Below are positions 132 to 9,779 of a DNA stretch of 36,736 nucleotides, one piece after another. Below the pieces are notes generated by a model, which had not been told where the DNA came from, did not search any database, and saw only the letters and a list, made by a program, of their open reading frames with translations. The stretch spans positions 1 through 36,736 of the forward strand of contig CAIVVS010000279.1 of assembly GCA_903909415.1 (NCBI GenBank), in the 5' to 3' direction. Source of the DNA: an uncultured Pseudomonadota bacterium (GTDB taxonomy: Bacteria > Pseudomonadota > Gammaproteobacteria > Burkholderiales > SG8-39). The first letter of the stretch is position 1; the number at the start of each line of letters is the position of its first letter. A program made the position numbers and the translations under genes.

Positions 132-1550
132 TCATCCCCTGAGCGAGAGGTCGTAGCCCTGCGTGGCGATGTCGTTCTTGGGTACGCAGAAGCTCTGCGC
201 GGTGCGCGGGCGCTCCCTCTCGGAACCGTTGCGCATTAGCCAGCGCGTCAGCACATCCGGCAAGTTGTTCTTTGCGTGCTCGTCCGAGCCAAGCTCGGTG
301 CGCGGCATTGCGCCGAGCCTGTCGTCTGGCAGCAGTGGCGTGCGCTTGTCATCCAGGCTCCAGCCGTCGGCCTGCACGTCGTAGAACCAGACACGGTCGG
401 TACCACCGGAGTTGGTCTTGGTGAACAGCAGGATGGCGGTCGACACGCCAGCGTAGGGCCGGAACACGCCACCGGGCAGCTTGACCACGGCATCGAGCTT
501 CTGGTCTTCGACCAGCATACGGCGCAGCTCCTTGTGCGCTGTGCTGGAGCCGAACAGCACGCCGTCAGGCACGATCACCGCAGCACGACCGCCGGGCTTC
601 AGCAGTCGGAGGAATAGCGCAAGGAACAGCAGCTCGGTCTTCCTAGTCTTGACGATCTGAAGCAGGTCCTTGGCGGTGTTCTCATAGTCCAGGCTGCCAG
701 CGAAGGGTGGATTCGCTAGCACTAAGGTGTATTTCTCCTCCTCGCCGACGTGGTCCTGCGCCAGCGAATCGCGGTAGCGGATGTCGGGGTTCTCCACACC
801 GTGCAGGAGCATGTTCATGCTGCCGATCCGCAGCATGGTGTTGTCGAAGTCGAAGCCGTGGAACATGTGTTGATGAAAGTGCTCACGCAGCTTGGCGTCG
901 TGCAGGATGTTCGGGTGACGCTCGCGCAGGACCTCCCCGGCCGTGACCAGGAAGCCAGCTGTGCCACTGGCCGGATCGCAGATGACGTCGGTGGGTTGTG
1001 GCGCGGTCAGCTCCACCATCAACCGGATGATGTGGCGCGGAGTGCGGAACTGGCCGTTCTGTCCGGCGCTGGCGATCTTGCCGAGCATGTACTCGTAGAC
1101 ATCGCCCTTGGTGTCGCGGTCCTCCATCGGCACCGCATCGAGCAGGTCCACTACTTTCGCAAGGAGCGCAGGCGTCGGGATGGTGAAGCGCGCGTCCTTC
1201 ATGTGGTTGGCGTACGTGGAGTTATCTCCACCCAGTGTCCGCAGGAACGGGAAAACGTGTTCGCCGAGCACGGTGTACATCTCGCCCGGGGCAAAGTGCT
1301 TGAAATGCGACCAGCGCAGATCCTCGTAAGGGCGCCCTTTGGAATCGCGTCCCTCTGGAAAGATTCGACGCGTCATTGGCGTCTTAAGGCGGGCGGATTT
1401 GTTCTCTTCCAGCGTGTGCAGATCGTCAAGGCGACGCAGGAAGAGCAGGTATGTGATCTGCTCGATCACCTCCAGTGGATTAGAGATGCCGCCGGACCAG
1501 AATGCATTCCATATCTGGTCGATTTGGCTCTTGATGTTGCCGGTGATCAT
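132..1550 (-). CDS. hsdM: Type I restriction-modification DNA methyltransferase subunit (HsdM), C-terminus truncated
   Basis: HsdM is the N6-adenine methyltransferase subunit of type I restriction-modification enzymes and works with HsdS, which sets target specificity. The protein has 472 residues. The N-terminal helical HsdM_N region (about 1-140) carries the IWNAFWSGGISNP and EQITYLLFLRRLDD motifs. The SAM-binding motif DPASGTAGF is at about 192-200 and the catalytic motif NPPF at about 280-283. I chose the ATG at 1550, before MITGNIKSQI, because family homology begins there; a GGGAG lies about nine bases upstream. The protein ends GYDLSLRG, exactly where HsdM proteins normally continue with a further 30 to 40 residues, so the 3' end looks truncated. 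No hsdS or hsdR is visible; they could lie beyond the left edge or be lost. Activity is uncertain. Confidence 0.9.
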   Translation of the reverse strand: MITGNIKSQIDQIWNAFWSGGISNPLEVIEQITYLLFLRRLDDLHTLEENKSARLKTPMTRRIFPEGRDSKGRPYEDLRWSHFKHFAPGEMYTVLGEHVFPFLRTLGGDNSTYANHMKDARFTIPTPALLAKVVDLLDAVPMEDRDTKGDVYEYMLGKIASAGQNGQFRTPRHIIRLMVELTAPQPTDVICDPASGTAGFLVTAGEVLRERHPNILHDAKLREHFHQHMFHGFDFDNTMLRIGSMNMLLHGVENPDIRYRDSLAQDHVGEEEKYTLVLANPPFAGSLDYENTAKDLLQIVKTRKTELLFLALFLRLLKPGGRAAVIVPDGVLFGSSTAHKELRRMLVEDQKLDAVVKLPGGVFRPYAGVSTAILLFTKTNSGGTDRVWFYDVQADGWSLDDKRTPLLPDDRLGAMPRTELGSDEHAKNNLPDVLTRWLMRNGSERERPRTAQSFCVPKNDIATQGYDLSLRG

Positions 1551-1708
1551 TAGGTGAAGCTCCCATCTGTTGTCTTGTGATGCATTCCGCTGCACGCCAG
1601 GTGAAGGACGCCCTGATGGGGTTTGTGCTCTGAGGCGTATCCGCCCCATCCAAAGAGGTAAAAGGGCGGGTTGGTCGGGACAAGCGTGACGACTTTCGGA
1701 GGACGCAT
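1550..1708 (-). CDS. Possible 52-residue protein between higA and hsdM
   Basis: A 52-codon frame begins with ATG directly after the TGA of higA (TGAATG) and ends with a TAA sharing one base with the hsdM ATG (TAATG). It therefore fills the gap between the two genes exactly, with coupling-type junctions on both sides. The product starts MRPPKVVTLVPTNPPFYLFG and has no signal peptide, membrane segment or recognised motif. I know of no family for it. The arrangement favours a real gene; the short length and ordinary codon use do not exclude chance. Confidence 0.3.
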   Translation of the reverse strand: MRPPKVVTLVPTNPPFYLFGWGGYASEHKPHQGVLHLACSGMHHKTTDGSFT

Positions 1709-2035
1709 TCAGGACATCCCGGCCTGGTTTCTGCGCTCGTCAGCTTGCCCGCTCTGGCGAAGGCGCGGTAGACGGCGAATTGCCGCGCCCGCTTTCGCTT
1801 CTGCCAACCGCAACTCATAAAGCTTCTGCAGGTTCAGCCAGAACTCGGGGGTGGTGCCGAAGAAATGCGCCAGGCGCAACGCACTGTCACCGGTCACCGC
1901 CCGCTGGCCGTTCAAAATGCCGGTGATGCGATTGGTGGGTACCTTGAGCTTCCGCCCGAGTTCGGCCGCGCTCATGCCCAGTTCCTGCAACTGCTCGGCC
2001 AGTTGCTCGCCGGGATGGATGGGGATGCGTGCCAT
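1709..2035 (-). CDS. higA: HigA-family antitoxin, XRE-type DNA-binding protein
   Basis: HigA antitoxins bind and neutralise a RelE-like mRNA endonuclease (HigB) and repress their own operon through a helix-turn-helix domain. The 108-residue product begins with the family's typical RIPIHPGEQLAEQL segment. The HTH follows at about 20-60 (MSAAELGRKLKVPTNRITGI, then LNGQRAVTGDSALRL), and then the conserved FFGTTPEFWLNLQKLYELRLAE. The C-terminal 20 residues are basic and longer than usual. The ATG at 2035 has a GAGGAG ribosome site. HigB normally lies just upstream, but no RelE-like frame is visible in the 350 bases there, so this appears to be an orphan antitoxin. It may regulate the downstream small frame and hsdM. 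Confidence 0.85.
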   Translation of the reverse strand: MARIPIHPGEQLAEQLQELGMSAAELGRKLKVPTNRITGILNGQRAVTGDSALRLAHFFGTTPEFWLNLQKLYELRLAEAKAGAAIRRLPRLRQSGQADERRNQAGMS

Positions 2036-2082
2036 CGTCGTTCTCCTCAGTCCTTGGATGGTCGGGGTGCTTGGCCTTTACG

Positions 2083-2238
2083 TCAAGCGTAACGGTGAAG
2101 AAGCGCGATCGCGTCGGCGTGAATAGCGCGATCCATCATTGTCCGATGCGGCCACGCCTTGCGGAGCTGGGGCGCATGCGATAGCCACGCTTGAACATGG
2201 CGCACGCTCATCCGCTTGCGATAGGCAGGCTTATTCAT
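2083..2238 (-). CDS. Doubtful 51-residue open frame upstream of higA
   Basis: The frame starts at an ATG without a convincing ribosome site and encodes a basic, histidine-rich peptide beginning MNKPAYRKRMSVRHVQAWL and ending LLHRYA. It occupies the place where a higB toxin would be expected, yet it shows no RelE-like motif. It could be a remnant or a chance frame. I do not recognise it. Confidence 0.15.
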   Translation of the reverse strand: MNKPAYRKRMSVRHVQAWLSHAPQLRKAWPHRTMMDRAIHADAIALLHRYA

Positions 2239-2301
2239 GGGCCGCGTGTGGAATGCGGCAGGAGCGGATGTGTATGTTCTAAGGGAGCCTAAAAAATAGA
2301 T

Positions 2302-2330
2302 AAAACAGCCACATATGCTGTTCTCCCCGG
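2302..2330 (+). repeat. AT-rich direct repeat, copy A
   Basis: The core reads AAAACAGCCACATATGC, followed by a T-rich stretch and CCGG, and is preceded by an A-rich tract. Sixteen of the first 17 bases match copy B at 4120. The core is also an imperfect inverted repeat (AACAG, nine bases, CTGTT). It lies about 65 bases beyond the hipA stop. Confidence 0.45.
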
Positions 2331-2392
2331 ATTTCCACTCCTCCGGCGCCCGGCAGGTTTCGCTGCCTTCACTCCAGCGCTAACCCGCGGAC

Positions 2393-3748
2393 TCAACCAA
2401 CCGCCATCGCCCCCAACCGCGCCGCCGACCTCTCCAACCCCTGCAACACGGCATCCAGCACCTGCTGCGGAAACCCTCGCGGCGCATCCCGCTGCACCGC
2501 CGCGATGACCCCGGGCGTCGCGGCCAGCACCTCGCCCACCAGCGCCTCGCCCCCGCCCCCCAGGCCGCAGCGCGCGGCGGTGGCGGTGAAGTGCCTGCGC
2601 TGCACTTCGTCCAGCAGGTAATGCTTATTGCGGCCGCGCACGGCCATGGCCAGCCTTGCGTTCTGTCGCGGGATGTTGCCGGCGCCCGCGCCGATGATGG
2701 GCCAGAACGAGAGCACGTCGTACAGCGGCGTCAGCTGGTAGCGCCCCTGCTCCAGGATGCGGATGCTGAAGTTCTTGGCATGCCCGTCGCATGCGGCCAG
2801 CAGCCAGAAGATGAGCTGCGCCTTGAACACGCAGGCCAGGTCCCGGTCGCGCTGCACGGAGCCGCGCAGCACCTGCGCGATGTCCTCCAGCCCCGGACCG
2901 CCGTCGGCCTCGTACTTCTGCGACGCGGGCCTGCCGGTGGCCTGGCAGAAGTCCTCCTGCACCAGGCGCAGCCAGTGCGTGCCGCTGGAATGCAGCTGGC
3001 GGTCGAAGCGCTCCACTACCAGCACTTTCTGCGCGCCGAACCGGGTGCCGAACTGTGCGATCTCGCTGCGCGCCACCGGCAGGCCGTAGGCGGCGAGGAT
3101 CTTCCCGCACAGCCATTCGTTCTCGACCGAGGCGGTCATGTCGATGCGCGCCCCGCCGATCAGCCCCATGGGCAGCTTGAAGATGTGGGTACTGGGTGTG
3201 GAGCCAAGCGGCCGGCACCAGCGGCCCTGGTGGCGCAGGAAGGCGGTTTTCTCCTGCGCCCCGGCAATCGAAATGCGGAAGTGGTCATCAGCCTGCCGGG
3301 TGGCGGCGGTCGACGGCGAAACGGCCTCGACCAGGTCGCGCTCGATGTCCTCATCCGTCAGCGGCGTGGCGGCGATGGTGTGGATGTCAGCCGGCGCCTC
3401 GCCCTCGGGCAGCAGTTGCACCGCGCCCACGCAATCACGCCCGACCTGCGCGAGCAGGTCGAACGGGCCGCGCGAGGCGGCGTGGAACCTCTCCTGCATG
3501 CGCCGGCGGATGGCGTCGGCATCCGGCAGCAGGTTGTCGAAGTAGTTCCCGACTTCCGGGCCCTTGACGGGCGCGTGGTCCAGGGTGAAGGGCAGCGACA
3601 GCGACAGGGGACGCCCGGTGTCGGATGCGACCCAGTCGGGGTGGTACTGGAATTCCATGTCGCCACGCGCCGGCATGCGCCACTCGCCGGCGAGTGCGCC
3701 GTTCACCCAGACCGACAGCGCGCGCTGGCGCGACTTGCGGCCCGCCAC
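2393..3748 (-). CDS. hipA: HipA-family serine/threonine kinase toxin
   Basis: HipA kinases phosphorylate a translation component (GltX in E. coli), causing growth arrest and antibiotic tolerance; HipB neutralises them. The product has 451 residues. An N-terminal HipA_N region covers about 10-115, including NYFDNLLPD. The conserved SIAGAQEKTAF loop is at about 160-170, VERFDR at 245-250, and the catalytic core DGHAKNFS at about 321-328. The presumed catalytic Asp is D321, with metal ligands N326 and D343 in YDVLS, by analogy with E. coli D309, N314 and D332. The GTG start at 3748 directly abuts the hipB TAA, so the pair is one transcript. All core residues seem present, so an active kinase is likely. 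The natural target is unknown. Confidence 0.92.
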   Translation of the reverse strand: MAGRKSRQRALSVWVNGALAGEWRMPARGDMEFQYHPDWVASDTGRPLSLSLPFTLDHAPVKGPEVGNYFDNLLPDADAIRRRMQERFHAASRGPFDLLAQVGRDCVGAVQLLPEGEAPADIHTIAATPLTDEDIERDLVEAVSPSTAATRQADDHFRISIAGAQEKTAFLRHQGRWCRPLGSTPSTHIFKLPMGLIGGARIDMTASVENEWLCGKILAAYGLPVARSEIAQFGTRFGAQKVLVVERFDRQLHSSGTHWLRLVQEDFCQATGRPASQKYEADGGPGLEDIAQVLRGSVQRDRDLACVFKAQLIFWLLAACDGHAKNFSIRILEQGRYQLTPLYDVLSFWPIIGAGAGNIPRQNARLAMAVRGRNKHYLLDEVQRRHFTATAARCGLGGGGEALVGEVLAATPGVIAAVQRDAPRGFPQQVLDAVLQGLERSAARLGAMAVG

Positions 3749-4111: not shown

Positions 4112-4145
4112 ATATATTAAAAACAGCCACTTATGCATTTTCCGG
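4112..4145 (+). repeat. AT-rich direct repeat, copy B
   Basis: A TATATATT tract is followed by AAAACAGCCACTTATGC and then ATTTTCCGG. The copy matches A (2302) and C (9754) in the same orientation. It lies between the hipBA promoter and the subtilase gene. The 125 bases between this repeat and the subtilase start hold nothing else I can support. Confidence 0.5.
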
Positions 4146-4270: not shown

Positions 4271-6130
4271 ATGCAATGTCGGCGGTGTGAAATGGCAGCC
4301 ATCGTTCCATCCTTCCGGCGACCCGACTTGCGCCGTACGCCGCCCCGACTCCTGCACGCCTGCAAGCCGCGCGCCCTGGCCGCGGCGCTGGCGATGCTGA
4401 GCGCGCTCTGGCATGGCGACGCCGGCGGCCGCGCGGTGAACCTGATCGTGGAGTTCGAGGCTGACGCGGTGGACGCCACGGCCAACGCGGCGCGCGCGCA
4501 GCGGCGCCTGGTCCGCGATGACGCCCCGCTGCGCGAGCAGCGCGCCAGCGGCTATGCGGGCATCAAGGCGCAGGTCAGGGCGGTGGCGGCCGGCGGCGAT
4601 GGCGCGCAGGTGCGCGACTACTCGAACCTGCCGATGGCGGTGTGGCGCGTCAGCTCGCCCGCCGCGCTGAACCGGCTGCTGGCCGACCCGCGCGTGCGCG
4701 CGGTGCACGAGGACGTGATCCTTCGCCCGGTGTCGGTGAGCGACCTCGGCTTCATCAACCAGCCGCAGGCGGTGGCCCAGGGCGCCAGCGGCGCCGGCAC
4801 GGTGATCGCGGTGATCGACGGCGGCCTGGGCAACAACTACCTGTCCTACCCGGACTTCGGCGCCTGCACCGGCGTGAACACGCCGACATCGACCTGCCGG
4901 GTACTGGTGAACCAGGAGTTCTACCCGGGCGCCTCCGCGGTGACCGCCCATGGCACCAACGTGTCGGCCATCGCGCTGGGCGTGGCGCCGGGCGCCAAGC
5001 TGGCGATGTACAACGTGTTCAACGGCAGCGGCGCGTACACCTCGGACATCCTCAGCGCGATGAACAGCATCATCGCCAATGCCAACCCGTCCACCTTCAA
5101 CGTGGTCGCAGTCAACCTCAGCCTGGGCGACAACAGCAGCCACCCGGTCCAGTGCAACAGCACCAACTGGCGCAGCCCCAACTACAGCGCGTTCAACGCG
5201 CCCGTCGCGGGGCTGGCCAACATGGGCATCACCACGGTGGCGGCGGCCGGCAACAGCGGCTCCAAGACCGGCCTGTCGGATCCGGCCTGCGTGCCCGGGG
5301 TGGTGTCGGTCGGCGCGGTGTACGACAACGCCTACGGCCCGGTCACCTGGGGCACGACGCCGAACTGCACCGACAACCCGCTCGCCGACCGCGTGACCTG
5401 CTTTTCCCAAAGCGCGTCCTACCTGTCGCTGCTGGCCCCAGGCAGCTTCGTCAATGCACCGTCCTCCGCGTTCCAGCAGTCCGGCACCTCGCAGGCCGCG
5501 CCGCACGTGTCCGGGGTGATCGCCGCGCTGCGCGCGCGCTACCCTGCGGAGCCGGTATCGCAGGCGCGCAAGCGGCTGGCCGACACCGGTGTGCCCGTGA
5601 CCGACCCGGCCAACGGGCGGGTGACGCCGCGCCTCGACATGCTGGCGGCCTACACCTATTCGACCGCGGTGTCGCTGTCGGGCAGCGGGCCGACCCAGGC
5701 GGTGGCCGGCGCCAGCGGCGCCTACACCCTCACCGCGAGCAATGCCGGGCCGCTGCTCGCGACCAACGTGACCGTGGTGGCGAACCTGCCGGCCGGGGCG
5801 AGCTTCGTCTCGGCCAGCCCCGGCTGCACCGTCGCTGGCGCCACCGTGACCTGCACCGCCGCCAGCCTGGCCGCGGGCGCGAACGCCGCCTTCACGATCA
5901 ACGTGCAGTGGACCAGCACCGGGGCGGCGTACTTCACCGCCGCGCTGTCCATCGACCAGTTCGACAGCGCCCCGCTCGAGGACACCCAGGTCGCGCTGGG
6001 CGGCCAGTCGCAGCCCGGACCGCACCAGGTTCCGCTGCCACCCTGGGCGCTGCTGGCACTGGCCGCGTTGCTGGCCGCCGGGGCGCACCGGCACCGACCG
6101 GCACGCCGTGAGGCCCTCGCCGTTCGCTGA
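4271..6130 (+). CDS. Secreted subtilisin-like serine protease (S8) with DUF11 domain and exosortase sorting tail
   Basis: A 619-residue S8 family protease. A basic segment and a hydrophobic stretch (about 33-47, ALAAALAMLSAL) form the export signal. The prodomain-like region runs to about 150. Catalytic residues are visible: Asp183 (AVIDGG), His227 (AHGTN), oxyanion Asn328 (AAAGNSG) and Ser407 (SGTSQAAPHVSG). A DUF11-type surface repeat follows at about 465-545. The end is tripartite: VPLPPWALL at 587-595, a short hydrophobic helix, and a basic HRHRPARR cluster. This is the layout of IPTL-CTERM-like exosortase substrates, and exosortase H is encoded two genes downstream. The protein is probably cleaved near this motif and transferred to an outer-surface carrier. 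The start could also be the ATG at 4292. No promoter is clear. Confidence 0.88.
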   Translation: MQCRRCEMAAIVPSFRRPDLRRTPPRLLHACKPRALAAALAMLSALWHGDAGGRAVNLIVEFEADAVDATANAARAQRRLVRDDAPLREQRASGYAGIKAQVRAVAAGGDGAQVRDYSNLPMAVWRVSSPAALNRLLADPRVRAVHEDVILRPVSVSDLGFINQPQAVAQGASGAGTVIAVIDGGLGNNYLSYPDFGACTGVNTPTSTCRVLVNQEFYPGASAVTAHGTNVSAIALGVAPGAKLAMYNVFNGSGAYTSDILSAMNSIIANANPSTFNVVAVNLSLGDNSSHPVQCNSTNWRSPNYSAFNAPVAGLANMGITTVAAAGNSGSKTGLSDPACVPGVVSVGAVYDNAYGPVTWGTTPNCTDNPLADRVTCFSQSASYLSLLAPGSFVNAPSSAFQQSGTSQAAPHVSGVIAALRARYPAEPVSQARKRLADTGVPVTDPANGRVTPRLDMLAAYTYSTAVSLSGSGPTQAVAGASGAYTLTASNAGPLLATNVTVVANLPAGASFVSASPGCTVAGATVTCTAASLAAGANAAFTINVQWTSTGAAYFTAALSIDQFDSAPLEDTQVALGGQSQPGPHQVPLPPWALLALAALLAAGAHRHRPARREALAVR

Positions 6131-6166
6131 CACCAGCAGGCAACGGCTGCGCGCTCGCACCGCGCG

Positions 6167-8422
6167 GTGCGCCCGTCCTCTACAATCCGGCCCGAGCCAG
6201 GGTTCCCCCGGGATCCTGGCGCCAGCAACCGCGGGCCCGCCTTGTCCAACGATTCCCAGTTCTCCCGCGACCTGACCAGCGGGATCATCACCTCCTTCAT
6301 TTCGCTGGTCTACAGCCTGAGCTTCGCCGCACTGATCTTCTCCGGCCCGCTGGCCGGCGGCCTGCCGCAGGGCATCAGCGCATTGCTGGTCGGCACCGGC
6401 GTGACCGCGCTCGCCGTGGCGCTGATGAGCGGCTTTCGCTTCGCGGTATCCGGGCCCGACGGCAACGCCTGCGCGGTGATGGCGAGCATGGCCGCGGCCG
6501 TGGCCGGCGGGATGTCCGCGGGCGCGGCACCCGGCGCCGCGGTGAACGACGTGATGTACCTGCTCGCCGTGACCACGCTGGTCACCGGCCTGTTCCTCGC
6601 ACTGCTGGGCACGGCGCGCGCCGGGCGCTGGATCCGCTTCATCCCCTATCCGGTGGTGGGCGGCCTGATCGCGGCGGCGGGCGCACTGACGGTCGCGGGC
6701 GCGCTGCGCGTGGTCACCGGGTTGCCGCCCTCGCACTGGATGCACGGGCTCGCGGCCGATGCCCAGCTGCAGGGCCAGGTGCTGCTGGCCCTCGCCTGGG
6801 CCGGTGCGCTGTGGTGGCTGATGCCCAGGGTGCGGCACCCGCTGGCACTGCCGCTTGCGCTGCTCGCCGGGATGCTGATGTTCCACCTTGCGCTGTCCGG
6901 CAGCGGCCTGGATCCGGCGCAGGCGCGCGAGCAGGGCTGGCTGTTCGCGCGCGCGCCGGACGCGACCATCTGGCATCCGTGGTCGTCGCGGGACCTGCAG
7001 CGTACCGACTGGTGGCTGCTGGCCAACCGCGCCGGCGACATCGCCACGCTGGTGCTGGTGACCACGCTCACGGTGCTCATCAACGCCACCGGGCTGGAAG
7101 TGGAAACCCGGACCGACACCAACCTGGACCGCGAACTCGGGATACAGGGCTTCGCCAACGTCGCCTCGTCGCTGGCCGGCGGGTTCCTCGGATTCCTGTC
7201 GATGAACCGCAGCCTGATCAACTACCGCATGGGGGCCACCACGCGCCGCAGCGGCCTGGTGTTCGCGGTGATGGCCGTGGTGCTCGCCTGGGCGGGCGTG
7301 GGTCTGGTGGGATGGCTGCCGCGCCCGCTGCTCGGCGGCGTGCTGGTGTATTTCGGGCTGCTCATCCTCGACAAGTGGCTGGTGCACACGCGCGGGCAGC
7401 TGCCGCTGCCGGATTACCTCGCGATGCTGCTGATCGCCGGCGTCACCGTCATCGGCGGCTTCGGTTACGGCCTGCTGGTCGGCATCGTCGCGGGCTGCGT
7501 GATGTTCGCGGTGAACTACAGCAAGGTGCAGCTGGTCAAGTTCAGCTTCACCGGCGGCGAATACCGCAGCAGCCATGAGCGCTCCGCCGAGGACCAGGCG
7601 CTGCTCGGCCGCCACGGCGGGGAAATCCGCATCTTCGTGCTGCAGGGTTTCATCTTCTTCGGCATGGCCGACCGCCTGTACCGCTCGGTGCTGGAACTGG
7701 CGCTGCCCGATGCCGGACCGGCGGCGCGCCATGTCGTCCTCGACCTGCGACTGGTGCACGGCATGGATGCCTCGGCGGTGGCGAGCTTCAGGAAGCTCGC
7801 CTACCGTGCCGAGGCCAGCGGCACGCGCATCGTGGTGACCGGCATGGCGGACGACCTGCTGGCCGAGTGGAAGGCGGGCGGCGACGCGGACCTGCTTGCG
7901 ATCGCGCATTTCCGCGACCTCGATGCCGGCATGGAGGATTGCGAGGACGCGGTGATCCTTGCGCACCGGGCGGACGCGCCGCGCGCCGGCGAGGCGATGC
8001 GGGAATGGCTGGCCGCCGAGATGGGCGAGGGCGCGCCGCAGCTGCTCGCGGTGCTGGCGCGACGCGAGCTCGGTCCAGGCGAGACCTTGTGCGGCCAGGA
8101 CGAGCCGGCCGACGCGATGTACTTCATCGAGAGCGGCCGCGTGTCGATCGAGCTGCGCCTGCCCGACGGCAGCCATCGCCGGCTGCGCACCATGGGGCCG
8201 AAGACCGTGCTGGGCGAGATGGGCCTGTACCGCGAGGCCAGGCGCAGCGCGAGCGTGGTGGTGCAGGAGGCCAGCGTGGTCTACGTGCTGGATGCGGTGG
8301 CGATGCAGCGGCTGGAAGCGAATGCGCCCGCGGCCGCCTCGCGCTTCCATGCGATGGTGGTGCGCACCATCGCCGACCGGCTGCAGTATTCCAACGCGCT
8401 GGTCACCGCACTGCAGCGCTGA
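6167..8422 (+). CDS. SulP-family anion transporter with STAS and cyclic-nucleotide-binding domains
   Basis: The 751-residue inner-membrane protein begins with a SulP/SLC26 permease region of about ten membrane segments (about 35-445), including the NATGLEVETRTDTNLDRELG segment typical of the family. A STAS domain (about 480-590) contains VVLDLRLVHGMDASAVASF. A C-terminal cNMP-binding domain (about 620-745) shows FIESGRVSIELRLPDG and GEMGLYREARRSASVV. SulP proteins move sulfate, bicarbonate or dicarboxylates; the substrate here is unknown. The cNMP module suggests gating by a cyclic nucleotide or a related ligand. The GTG at 6167 is the upstream limit, and TTG at 6242 (before SNDSQFSRDLTSG) is a plausible true start. 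It lies between the subtilase and xrtH, all facing right. Confidence 0.88.
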   Translation: MRPSSTIRPEPGFPRDPGASNRGPALSNDSQFSRDLTSGIITSFISLVYSLSFAALIFSGPLAGGLPQGISALLVGTGVTALAVALMSGFRFAVSGPDGNACAVMASMAAAVAGGMSAGAAPGAAVNDVMYLLAVTTLVTGLFLALLGTARAGRWIRFIPYPVVGGLIAAAGALTVAGALRVVTGLPPSHWMHGLAADAQLQGQVLLALAWAGALWWLMPRVRHPLALPLALLAGMLMFHLALSGSGLDPAQAREQGWLFARAPDATIWHPWSSRDLQRTDWWLLANRAGDIATLVLVTTLTVLINATGLEVETRTDTNLDRELGIQGFANVASSLAGGFLGFLSMNRSLINYRMGATTRRSGLVFAVMAVVLAWAGVGLVGWLPRPLLGGVLVYFGLLILDKWLVHTRGQLPLPDYLAMLLIAGVTVIGGFGYGLLVGIVAGCVMFAVNYSKVQLVKFSFTGGEYRSSHERSAEDQALLGRHGGEIRIFVLQGFIFFGMADRLYRSVLELALPDAGPAARHVVLDLRLVHGMDASAVASFRKLAYRAEASGTRIVVTGMADDLLAEWKAGGDADLLAIAHFRDLDAGMEDCEDAVILAHRADAPRAGEAMREWLAAEMGEGAPQLLAVLARRELGPGETLCGQDEPADAMYFIESGRVSIELRLPDGSHRRLRTMGPKTVLGEMGLYREARRSASVVVQEASVVYVLDAVAMQRLEANAPAAASRFHAMVVRTIADRLQYSNALVTALQR

Positions 8423-8523
8423 GGCGCCGGGTCCGAACGGACTACGGAACGCGCCAGCCGGCGCAGTCAACGGTCACATTGCGGGACTACCATCCTGAGT
8501 CCTGCCCCACGTGGGACGCGCTC

Positions 8524-9114
8524 GTGGAATCCGCAAGAACGGGAACCAGCCCGGGCGAACCGGCGCCACCCCTGACCATCGACGCCTGGCTCGCGGGCAC
8601 GTCCGTTCGGCGCGAGCCCGGGCCCTTGCGCTTCCTGCTGCTGTTCGCCTGCGGCTATGCCCTGCTGTACTGGGCCTACTGGCTGGTGCCCGACGCGGTG
8701 CTGCGTGACTCGCTGTATCCGGTCGCCATCCTCCGGCCCTGCGCGGACCTGATCAACCTGGTGTTTCCGGTGGAGGCAGTGGGCGTCACGGCGGGAATGC
8801 TCGTGTCGCCGCAGGCCAGCCTCGAGGTGGTGCGCGGCTGCGACGGTTCGGGGATGCTGTTCCTGATCGTCGCCGCGATCATGGCGTTCCCGTCCGCCTG
8901 GCGCGCGCGCCTGGCCGGCCTGTGCGGCGCGCTGCTGCTGGTCCATGCGCTGAACACCGCGCGCATCGTGCTGCTGTATTTCGCCGCCGCGTACCGCGAA
9001 TCCTGGTTCCTGCCCCTGCACACCTACCTGGTGCCGACCCTGTTCGTGCTCGGGGGCGGACTGTACTTCGCCTGGTGGGCGGCGCGGCAGCATCGTCCGG
9101 CGGCGGGCGCCTGA
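8524..9114 (+). CDS. xrtH: Exosortase H (XrtH), cysteine transpeptidase for C-terminal sorting signals
   Basis: Exosortases are polytopic inner-membrane transpeptidases that cleave proteins at C-terminal PEP-CTERM-like signals; type H recognises IPTLxxWG-like tails. The 196-residue product has about five hydrophobic segments from residue 35 on. The expected catalytic residues are Cys106 (VVRGCDGSG), Arg147 (NTARIVLL) and His166 (LPLHTYLVP). Two starts are possible: GTG at 8524, chosen because the membrane region follows after about 34 residues, and TTG at 8479. Four bases separate it from the next gene, which encodes the XrtH partner. The upstream subtilase carries a fitting sorting tail, so enzyme and substrate appear to be co-encoded. 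Confidence 0.9.
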   Translation: MESARTGTSPGEPAPPLTIDAWLAGTSVRREPGPLRFLLLFACGYALLYWAYWLVPDAVLRDSLYPVAILRPCADLINLVFPVEAVGVTAGMLVSPQASLEVVRGCDGSGMLFLIVAAIMAFPSAWRARLAGLCGALLLVHALNTARIVLLYFAAAYRESWFLPLHTYLVPTLFVLGGGLYFAWWAARQHRPAAGA

Positions 9115-9118
9115 TCGC

Positions 9119-9754
9119 ATGGCGGCGCCCGCCCTCGGGCCGCTCGCGCTGCGCGTCCTCGCCACATGGGTGCTGCTCTCCTGGCTGGGACTGGCCTGCG
9201 CGCCGGAACTGGTCGCGCCGCTGCTTCCCATGTTCTCCGCCGTACTCGACATGCTGCTGCTGGGCCAGTTCATCCCCAGCCTCGACCTTGCCGGCGAGGG
9301 CAACGGGGCGGTGCTCCGCTTGTCCGCGCTCACGATCCGGGCCCTGCCCCTGCCGGACGACATCTACGTTCCCGCCATGGCGCGACTGCCGCACATCACG
9401 ACGCACCTGTCGCATGTACTCGTGCCGGCGATCCTGCTGGCCTGCGCCCTGGTGGCCTGGCCCGCGCGCAACCGCGCCGAGGCCTTGCTGCGCGTTGCCC
9501 TCGGCGTCGTGGCGATGGCACCGGTGATGGCGCTGACCACGCCCGTGACGCTGGCAGGACGGCTCCACATGCTGGTCAGCGAACCAGGCCCGGGCAACCA
9601 CCGTTGGCTGCTGGACTGGGTCTTGTTCGCCGAGGGGGGCGGGCGTTGGCTGGTTCCACTGGTCGCTGCGGCAGCCTGCACGACCCTGGCGCACCGATGT
9701 GTCCGCGAAGGGCGCGGCAGCATCGGTCGAGGCGGAACAGAATTATTTCATTGA
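9119..9754 (+). CDS. Exosortase H-associated membrane protein
   Basis: The 211-residue protein has several hydrophobic segments (about 8-28, 100-118, 125-145 and 178-195) separated by a predicted periplasmic stretch containing FIPSLDL and LPLPDDIYVP. A protein of this kind is the regular neighbour of xrtH, and the ATG lies four bases after the xrtH stop, so the two are co-translated. The molecular role of the family is not established; a structural or substrate-handling partner of the exosortase is an inference. The last codons overlap repeat copy C. Confidence 0.8.
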   Translation: MAAPALGPLALRVLATWVLLSWLGLACAPELVAPLLPMFSAVLDMLLLGQFIPSLDLAGEGNGAVLRLSALTIRALPLPDDIYVPAMARLPHITTHLSHVLVPAILLACALVAWPARNRAEALLRVALGVVAMAPVMALTTPVTLAGRLHMLVSEPGPGNHRWLLDWVLFAEGGGRWLVPLVAAAACTTLAHRCVREGRGSIGRGGTELFH

Positions 9755-9779
9755 AAACAGTCACTTAGCATGTTTTCGG
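9740..9779 (+). repeat. AT-rich direct repeat, copy C
   Basis: The core AAAACAGTCACTTAGCATG follows an AATTATTTCATT tract, in the same orientation as copies A and B. This copy contains a perfect inverted repeat GAAAACA-N11-TGTTTTC (9753-9777). It spans the stop codon of the XrtH-associated gene and lies in the short convergent gap before the FecR-domain gene. It might act as a weak bidirectional hairpin, but its resemblance to A and B argues for a shared origin. Confidence 0.5.

Follow-up and report, generated by a model that had tools for sequence, protein, structure and literature searches.

A tailed subtilase, an XrtM exosortase and a conserved partner membrane protein as a probable sorting system in an uncultured bacterium

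The DNA considered here, called the window throughout, is the whole stretch of 36,736 nucleotides that was analysed, and it carries on its + strand, from 4271 to 9754, a cassette of four genes. The positions of the open reading frames place a subtilase, a SulP transporter, an exosortase and a membrane protein in that order, which confirms all four genes, their order and their strand as they had been given in an earlier, sequence-only reading of this DNA. The cassette and the features that flank it are as follows.

132-1649, - strand: type I restriction methyltransferase-like gene
1709-2035, - strand: HigA-type antitoxin
2393-3748, - strand: HipA-domain gene
4120..4133, + strand: AT-rich direct repeat AAAACAGnCACTTA, to the left of the cassette (the window has 2 exact copies of it, and 100 shuffles gave none)
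4271..6130, + strand: S8 subtilase with a DUF11 domain and a C-terminal sorting-type tail, the presumed XrtM substrate (PF00082, PF01345)
6026..6127, + strand: subtilase tail QVPLPPWALLALAALLAAGAHRHRPARREALAVR, a motif, then a hydrophobic stretch, then a basic end (leave-one-out tail profile)
6242..8422, + strand: SulP-STAS-cNMP transporter, judged a bystander (PF00916, PF01740, PF00027)
8479..9114, + strand: xrtM exosortase, TTG start, 211 aa (TIGR04300)
9119..9754, + strand: XrtM partner membrane protein, 211 aa (partner profile)
9754..9767, + strand: second exact copy of the repeat AAAACAGnCACTTA, starting on the last base of the partner stop codon
9792-10739, - strand: FecR-like protein, just after the cassette (weak Pfam match, 15.4 bits for a cut-off of 24)

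The coordinates of the SulP gene assume a TTG start, as do those of xrtM, for which a shorter start at about 8524 would give a protein of 196 aa. The subtilase has an alternative ATG start 7 codons downstream, which corresponds to the 612-aa form P0027. Four bases separate xrtM from the gene of its partner (xrtM stop at 9114, partner start at 9119).

In an NCBIfam scan, the exosortase passes the cut-off of the XrtM model TIGR04300 (131.5 bits against 125) and that of the exosortase/archaeosortase superfamily TIGR04178 (46.6 bits against 23), and it stays below that of the XrtH model TIGR04177 (46.3 bits against 86). The Pfam family Exosortase_EpsH (PF09721) gives 22.4 bits, under its gathering cut-off of 25.7, and a newer version of the same family is listed for the identical protein P0001 in a precomputed table. 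Since TIGR04300 is over its cut-off and TIGR04177 under, the enzyme is, by its family scores, an XrtM, and the earlier name XrtH is not borne out. Its homologues at E <= 0.001 are 26 proteins, the window protein included, several of which are annotated as XrtM at their source. The enzyme shares with XrtM, besides the family score, the invariant Cys, Arg and His, as C121, R162 and H181 stand in invariant columns of the 26-row alignment; these are the residues previously pointed out as C106, R147 and H166, a numbering that depends on the start, in that case 15 codons downstream of the one of our 211-aa reading. The AlphaFold2 structure predicted for this XrtM has a mean pLDDT of 90.2. The enzyme family is already named and the kind of system is already known. 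The library entry names the enzyme alone: our scans of the libraries, including NCBIfam, turned up neither a signal model nor a family for the partner of XrtM, about which the curators of TIGR04300 may know more, and a literature search found no paper treating XrtM as an exosortase. To our knowledge, exosortases are recognised by sequence, and it is only for a few of them that a substrate, a partner or a product has been demonstrated.

The membrane protein downstream of xrtM had been proposed as the partner of the exosortase, and its conservation upholds this. It has no match in Pfam or NCBIfam at E up to 1, and five of its relatives have none in NCBIfam, in searches whose HMMER filters can hide weak matches; a comparison with solved structures gave no strong match or clear relative. 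It is predicted to fold as helices surrounding a short beta part (AlphaFold2 mean pLDDT 92.4), and H99, P103, E172, G174 and W177 are invariant. With alignment A2 we found 29 XrtM loci, mostly from Methylococcales and other Gammaproteobacteria according to the record titles, and tblastn finds the partner in 28 of them; the locus that lacks it, L006, stops 49 bases past the XrtM match. The partner profile detects it in 48/49 and in 8/9 further XrtM stretches, that is, in 56/58 of a set that counts one place twice (L016 = L132). Adjacency to xrtM is not universal: a gene lies between the two in L009, the partner is on the opposite strand in L022 and L023, and in G195 it is on another contig than XrtM. 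In a family sample of 201 genomes (the family of G007), 24 of which have an XrtM over the cut-off, the partner profile (E 1e-6) matches 24/24 XrtM genomes against 0/177 of the others, and it matches 13/13 XrtM genomes once the 11 genomes that supplied profile rows are removed. XrtM and partner are present in equal copies in G183 (5/5), G213 (4/4) and G013 (2/2). G104 and G172 have one partner match more than XrtM, the gene beside XrtM in G172 being a fragment. We also observe that in G183 and G213 every XrtM copy comes with a partner (L108-L114, L125, L126).

The first gene of the cassette encodes a subtilase with a PF00082 domain (82.1 bits, gathering cut-off 21.8) and a PF01345 (DUF11) domain (54.5 bits), in which Asp183, His227 and Ser407, which we take to be the catalytic residues, stand in the usual subtilase contexts. 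It ends in QVPLPPWALL, a helix and a basic end. The earlier view of this tail as a variant of IPTL-CTERM holds to the extent that the model TIGR04174 does match it (residues 589-607), but at 15.3 bits, short of the cut-off of 20.5. The IPTL-CTERM motif is [IV]-P-x-L-x-x-W-G; it aligns with the V-P-A-L-P-T-W-A of XrtM-type tails, which differ by a second proline before W and mostly by A, S or G after it. From tails near the XrtM of several loci we built an alignment, A4, of 11 rows, the window row included. A leave-one-out profile made from the ten other tails gives the subtilase as the sole significant window frame (E 1.3e-7, the next being at 0.69; n=522), and the likeness of its tail to the others is thus more than chance. 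The suggestion that the tail might resemble no sorting signal is answered by these matches to tails from other XrtM genomes: it behaves as a sorting-type signal. It is similar to a signal that is not catalogued, approximately [VI]-P-x(0,1)-[LM]-P-x-W-[ASG], a type fitted by 28/31 hand-picked tails, in which the residue after the W is A in 20 cases, S in 3, G in 3, F in 1 and M in 1. Among the homologues of the subtilase, a P[LVIMF]PxW tail is present in every one of the best 119 of 743 (that of the window excluded), so that this protease family has had it for long; [DN][AGV] precedes the motif in 116 of these 119, and many of them come from Steroidobacteraceae records.

This type of tail co-occurs with XrtM. 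The loci come from 28 XrtM genomes, and A4 finds a match (E 0.1) in 23 of these; 10 had given A4 rows, and of the other 18 genomes 13 have a match. Of the 42 A4 places, 30 were fetched, and 28/30 begin at most 42 residues from the protein end. In the family sample, where up to 39 candidates were scored per genome, A4 (E 0.01) matches 16/24 XrtM genomes against 4/177 of the others (p 1.6e-14), and 12/20 against 4/177 once training genomes are removed (p 3.8e-11). An inspection by eye for strict P-x-W tails at the C-terminus gives 11/24 against 0/177 (p 6e-12). Of the four matches without XrtM, that in G036 is a frame of 23 aa, that in G068 a frame lacking this kind of tail, that in G188 is internal and that in G166 is a tail of PEP-like type, and 8/24 XrtM genomes have no A4 match among the up to 39 candidates scored in each. 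Close relatives of the G166 tail account for the A4 matches in G002, G105 and one of those in G171; in all, the matches in G002, G105, G010, G594 and part of G171 are PEP-CTERM-like rather than P-x-W. PEP-type tails are also present in XrtM genomes (e.g. L002, L026), so the two signals coexist.

In a class sample of 369 genomes, XrtM-like enzymes (E 1e-20) are present in 10, of which 3 are over the cut-off, and A4 matches 6/10 of these against 9/359 of the others, with a limited number of candidates scored per genome (up to 21 in this other large search). Among the nine exceptions, G533 carries adjacent genes for an XrtM-like enzyme, a partner and a tailed protein (L124), and G233 has an XrtH. 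In an order sample of 36 genomes, 8 of them with an XrtM-like enzyme (E 1e-15), the match is 8/8 against 2/28, or 5/8 against 2/28 in the strict P-x-W reading. The three samples overlap, G001, G010 and G027 each being in two. The tails are also close to the enzyme genes: in the XrtM genomes of the family sample, 13/23 tail places, two of them PEP-like, are no more than 15 kb away from an xrtM, as are 9/19 without the four training rows, for distances worked by hand and a chance of about 0.7% that a random place falls within 15 kb. At a loose threshold, a tail-bearing frame is present in 24/58 XrtM stretches and absent in 34/58.

We consider it likely that XrtM, its partner and the subtilase tail form one sorting system here, and we hold each chemical step of it with less confidence. 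The mechanism is drawn by analogy with the sorting systems presented in PMC3237569 and PMC11980579. The subtilase would be exported through the inner membrane and then retained by its C-terminal tail, whose basic residues would stay on the cytoplasmic side while its VPLPPW motif reaches the outer one. XrtM would use Cys121, together with Arg162 and His181, to cut at this motif or close to it, and it would pass the new C-terminus to a putative acceptor, or the protein would be released. The partner may be required for the cut or the transfer, perhaps as a scaffold or as a presenter of the acceptor. The window enzyme belongs to the same superfamily (TIGR04178) as those of the EpsH/XrtA PEP-CTERM systems, whose tails have the same tripartite build but a different motif. 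The idea of a dedicated enzyme-substrate pair is plausible, as a dedicated or few-substrate pairing. Weighing against the system as drawn are the 8/24 XrtM genomes and 34/58 stretches that lack a tail match, the matches of PEP-CTERM-like type, the tail-like C-termini of G587 and G584, and two matches that are internal to proteins (L057, L062).

The tail could instead belong to a wider P-x-W class served by another enzyme, or be a plain anchor, in which case the adjacent xrtM would not be its processor. Such a reading, which we find unlikely, would suit the presence of the tail in all of the best 119 of 743 homologues, many of them from Steroidobacteraceae, whose hosts may or may not have XrtM. 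It would also suit G587, an order-mate without XrtM that ends in VPLPTWALW and gave no match in an exosortase-family search at E 1e-5. This genome and G584, another order-mate without XrtM, in which a frame of 95 aa has a tail-like C-terminus and the sole exosortase is of a non-XrtM type, are either real counter-examples or gaps. Against this reading stand the co-occurrence of the tail with XrtM in the three samples, its closeness to xrtM, and the subtilase relatives, which are found beside XrtM in 8/58 stretches. Of the four subtilase matches that score highest in the class sample, three adjoin XrtM, and the fourth (G492), with no XrtM or partner match nearby, lacks the tail as well. It is very improbable that the enzyme is an XrtH acting on an IPTL-CTERM substrate. 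The build of the tail is the same, TIGR04177 and TIGR04174 do match the window proteins, and the W-G of IPTL is present in some XrtM-linked tails, but both XrtH-side models remain under their cut-offs, whereas TIGR04300 is over its own. Moreover, the genome of the single true XrtH that we met (G233, 194.5 bits) carries a W-G tail, and the stretch around this XrtH (L123), a single case, has no match to the partner profile.

The remaining alternative concerns the SulP gene, which would be a functional member, a small-molecule-gated transporter that controls the sorting cassette. The Pfam scan confirms a SulP between subtilase and exosortase with Sulfate_transp (PF00916), STAS (PF01740) and cNMP_binding (PF00027) domains, and its position and shared direction would suit such a role. 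The linkage to xrtM may be kept only in the closest relative, for which the records P0002 and P0148 both give 118,893 bases as the length of the longest contig. Yet SulP is found in 0/29 XrtM loci and in 0/58 XrtM stretches, apart from a 103-residue cNMP-type match in L099; absence from related loci is what the sequence-only reading had itself named as speaking against membership. The architecture is also widespread elsewhere: all three domains are present in 74/78 SulP matches, a proportion favored by the three-domain query, and as far as such matches tell, it is not rare among SulP relatives. SulP is probably a bystander, outside the sorting system, and we regard its membership as very improbable; the control of the protease or the cassette by a small molecule is unsupported.

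Returning to the sorting system made of XrtM, partner and tail, we put forward a broader proposal only tentatively, at somewhat less than even chances. XrtM and its partner would be an obligatory two-protein machine that has a signal to itself, [VI]-P-x(0,1)-[LM]-P-x-W-[ASG], and acts in each genome on very few secreted hydrolases (subtilases, a kumamolisin-like protease, an ExeM-type nuclease, a 5'-nucleotidase), sometimes cutting mid-protein, the partner supplying or selecting the acceptor. Linked to each other, XrtM, the signal and the invariable partner make a compact system of one enzyme, one partner and often one or a few cargoes. Culturable methanotroph carriers (Methylomonas and Methyloglobulus records) would allow a direct test of the cargo chemistry, and the link would also give annotators a name for the partner and for such tails.

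Ten tailed proteins near XrtM comprise two subtilases, one pro-kumamolisin-domain protein, one ExeM/NucH-type nuclease, one 5'-nucleotidase-like protein with CBM96, four cyclase/TED-like proteins with Ig domains and one leucine-rich repeat protein. IPTL-CTERM matches 4/10 of them with scores of 12.4 to 17.6 bits, none of which reaches 20.5. A comparable arrangement is that of rhombosortase and GlyGly-CTERM, presented in PMC3237569 as dedicated systems whose enzyme and single target tend to adjoin and whose cargo includes extracellular nucleases and serine proteases; rhombosortase, a rhomboid serine protease, belongs to an enzyme family unrelated to XrtM. In L057 (G013) and L062 (G213) the motif is internal, 477 and 251 residues from the end, which would suit mid-protein cutting. 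In L007, L011, L012, L014 and L019, giant frames (up to ~2480 aa) precede xrtM and have a tailed or similar protein family next to them, that of L019 being RHS-like by eye.

As for the records themselves, the MAGs of L006 and L022 are titled Bordetella parapertussis and Klebsiella pneumoniae; the gene neighbourhood of L022 is common to L023, a gammaproteobacterial MAG, so these titles may be misnomers. In the window, the region left of the cassette (132-3748) is a defence and toxin-antitoxin-like cluster. The repeat follows the consensus AAAACAGnCAC[AT]TA, with three copies on the + strand only (2302-2315, 4120-4133 and 9754-9767), which bracket the HipA gene and the entire XrtM cassette. Near the two exact copies, the GC content is about 22-29%, against 68.6% for the window, and the repeats are possibly an insertion boundary or an operator.
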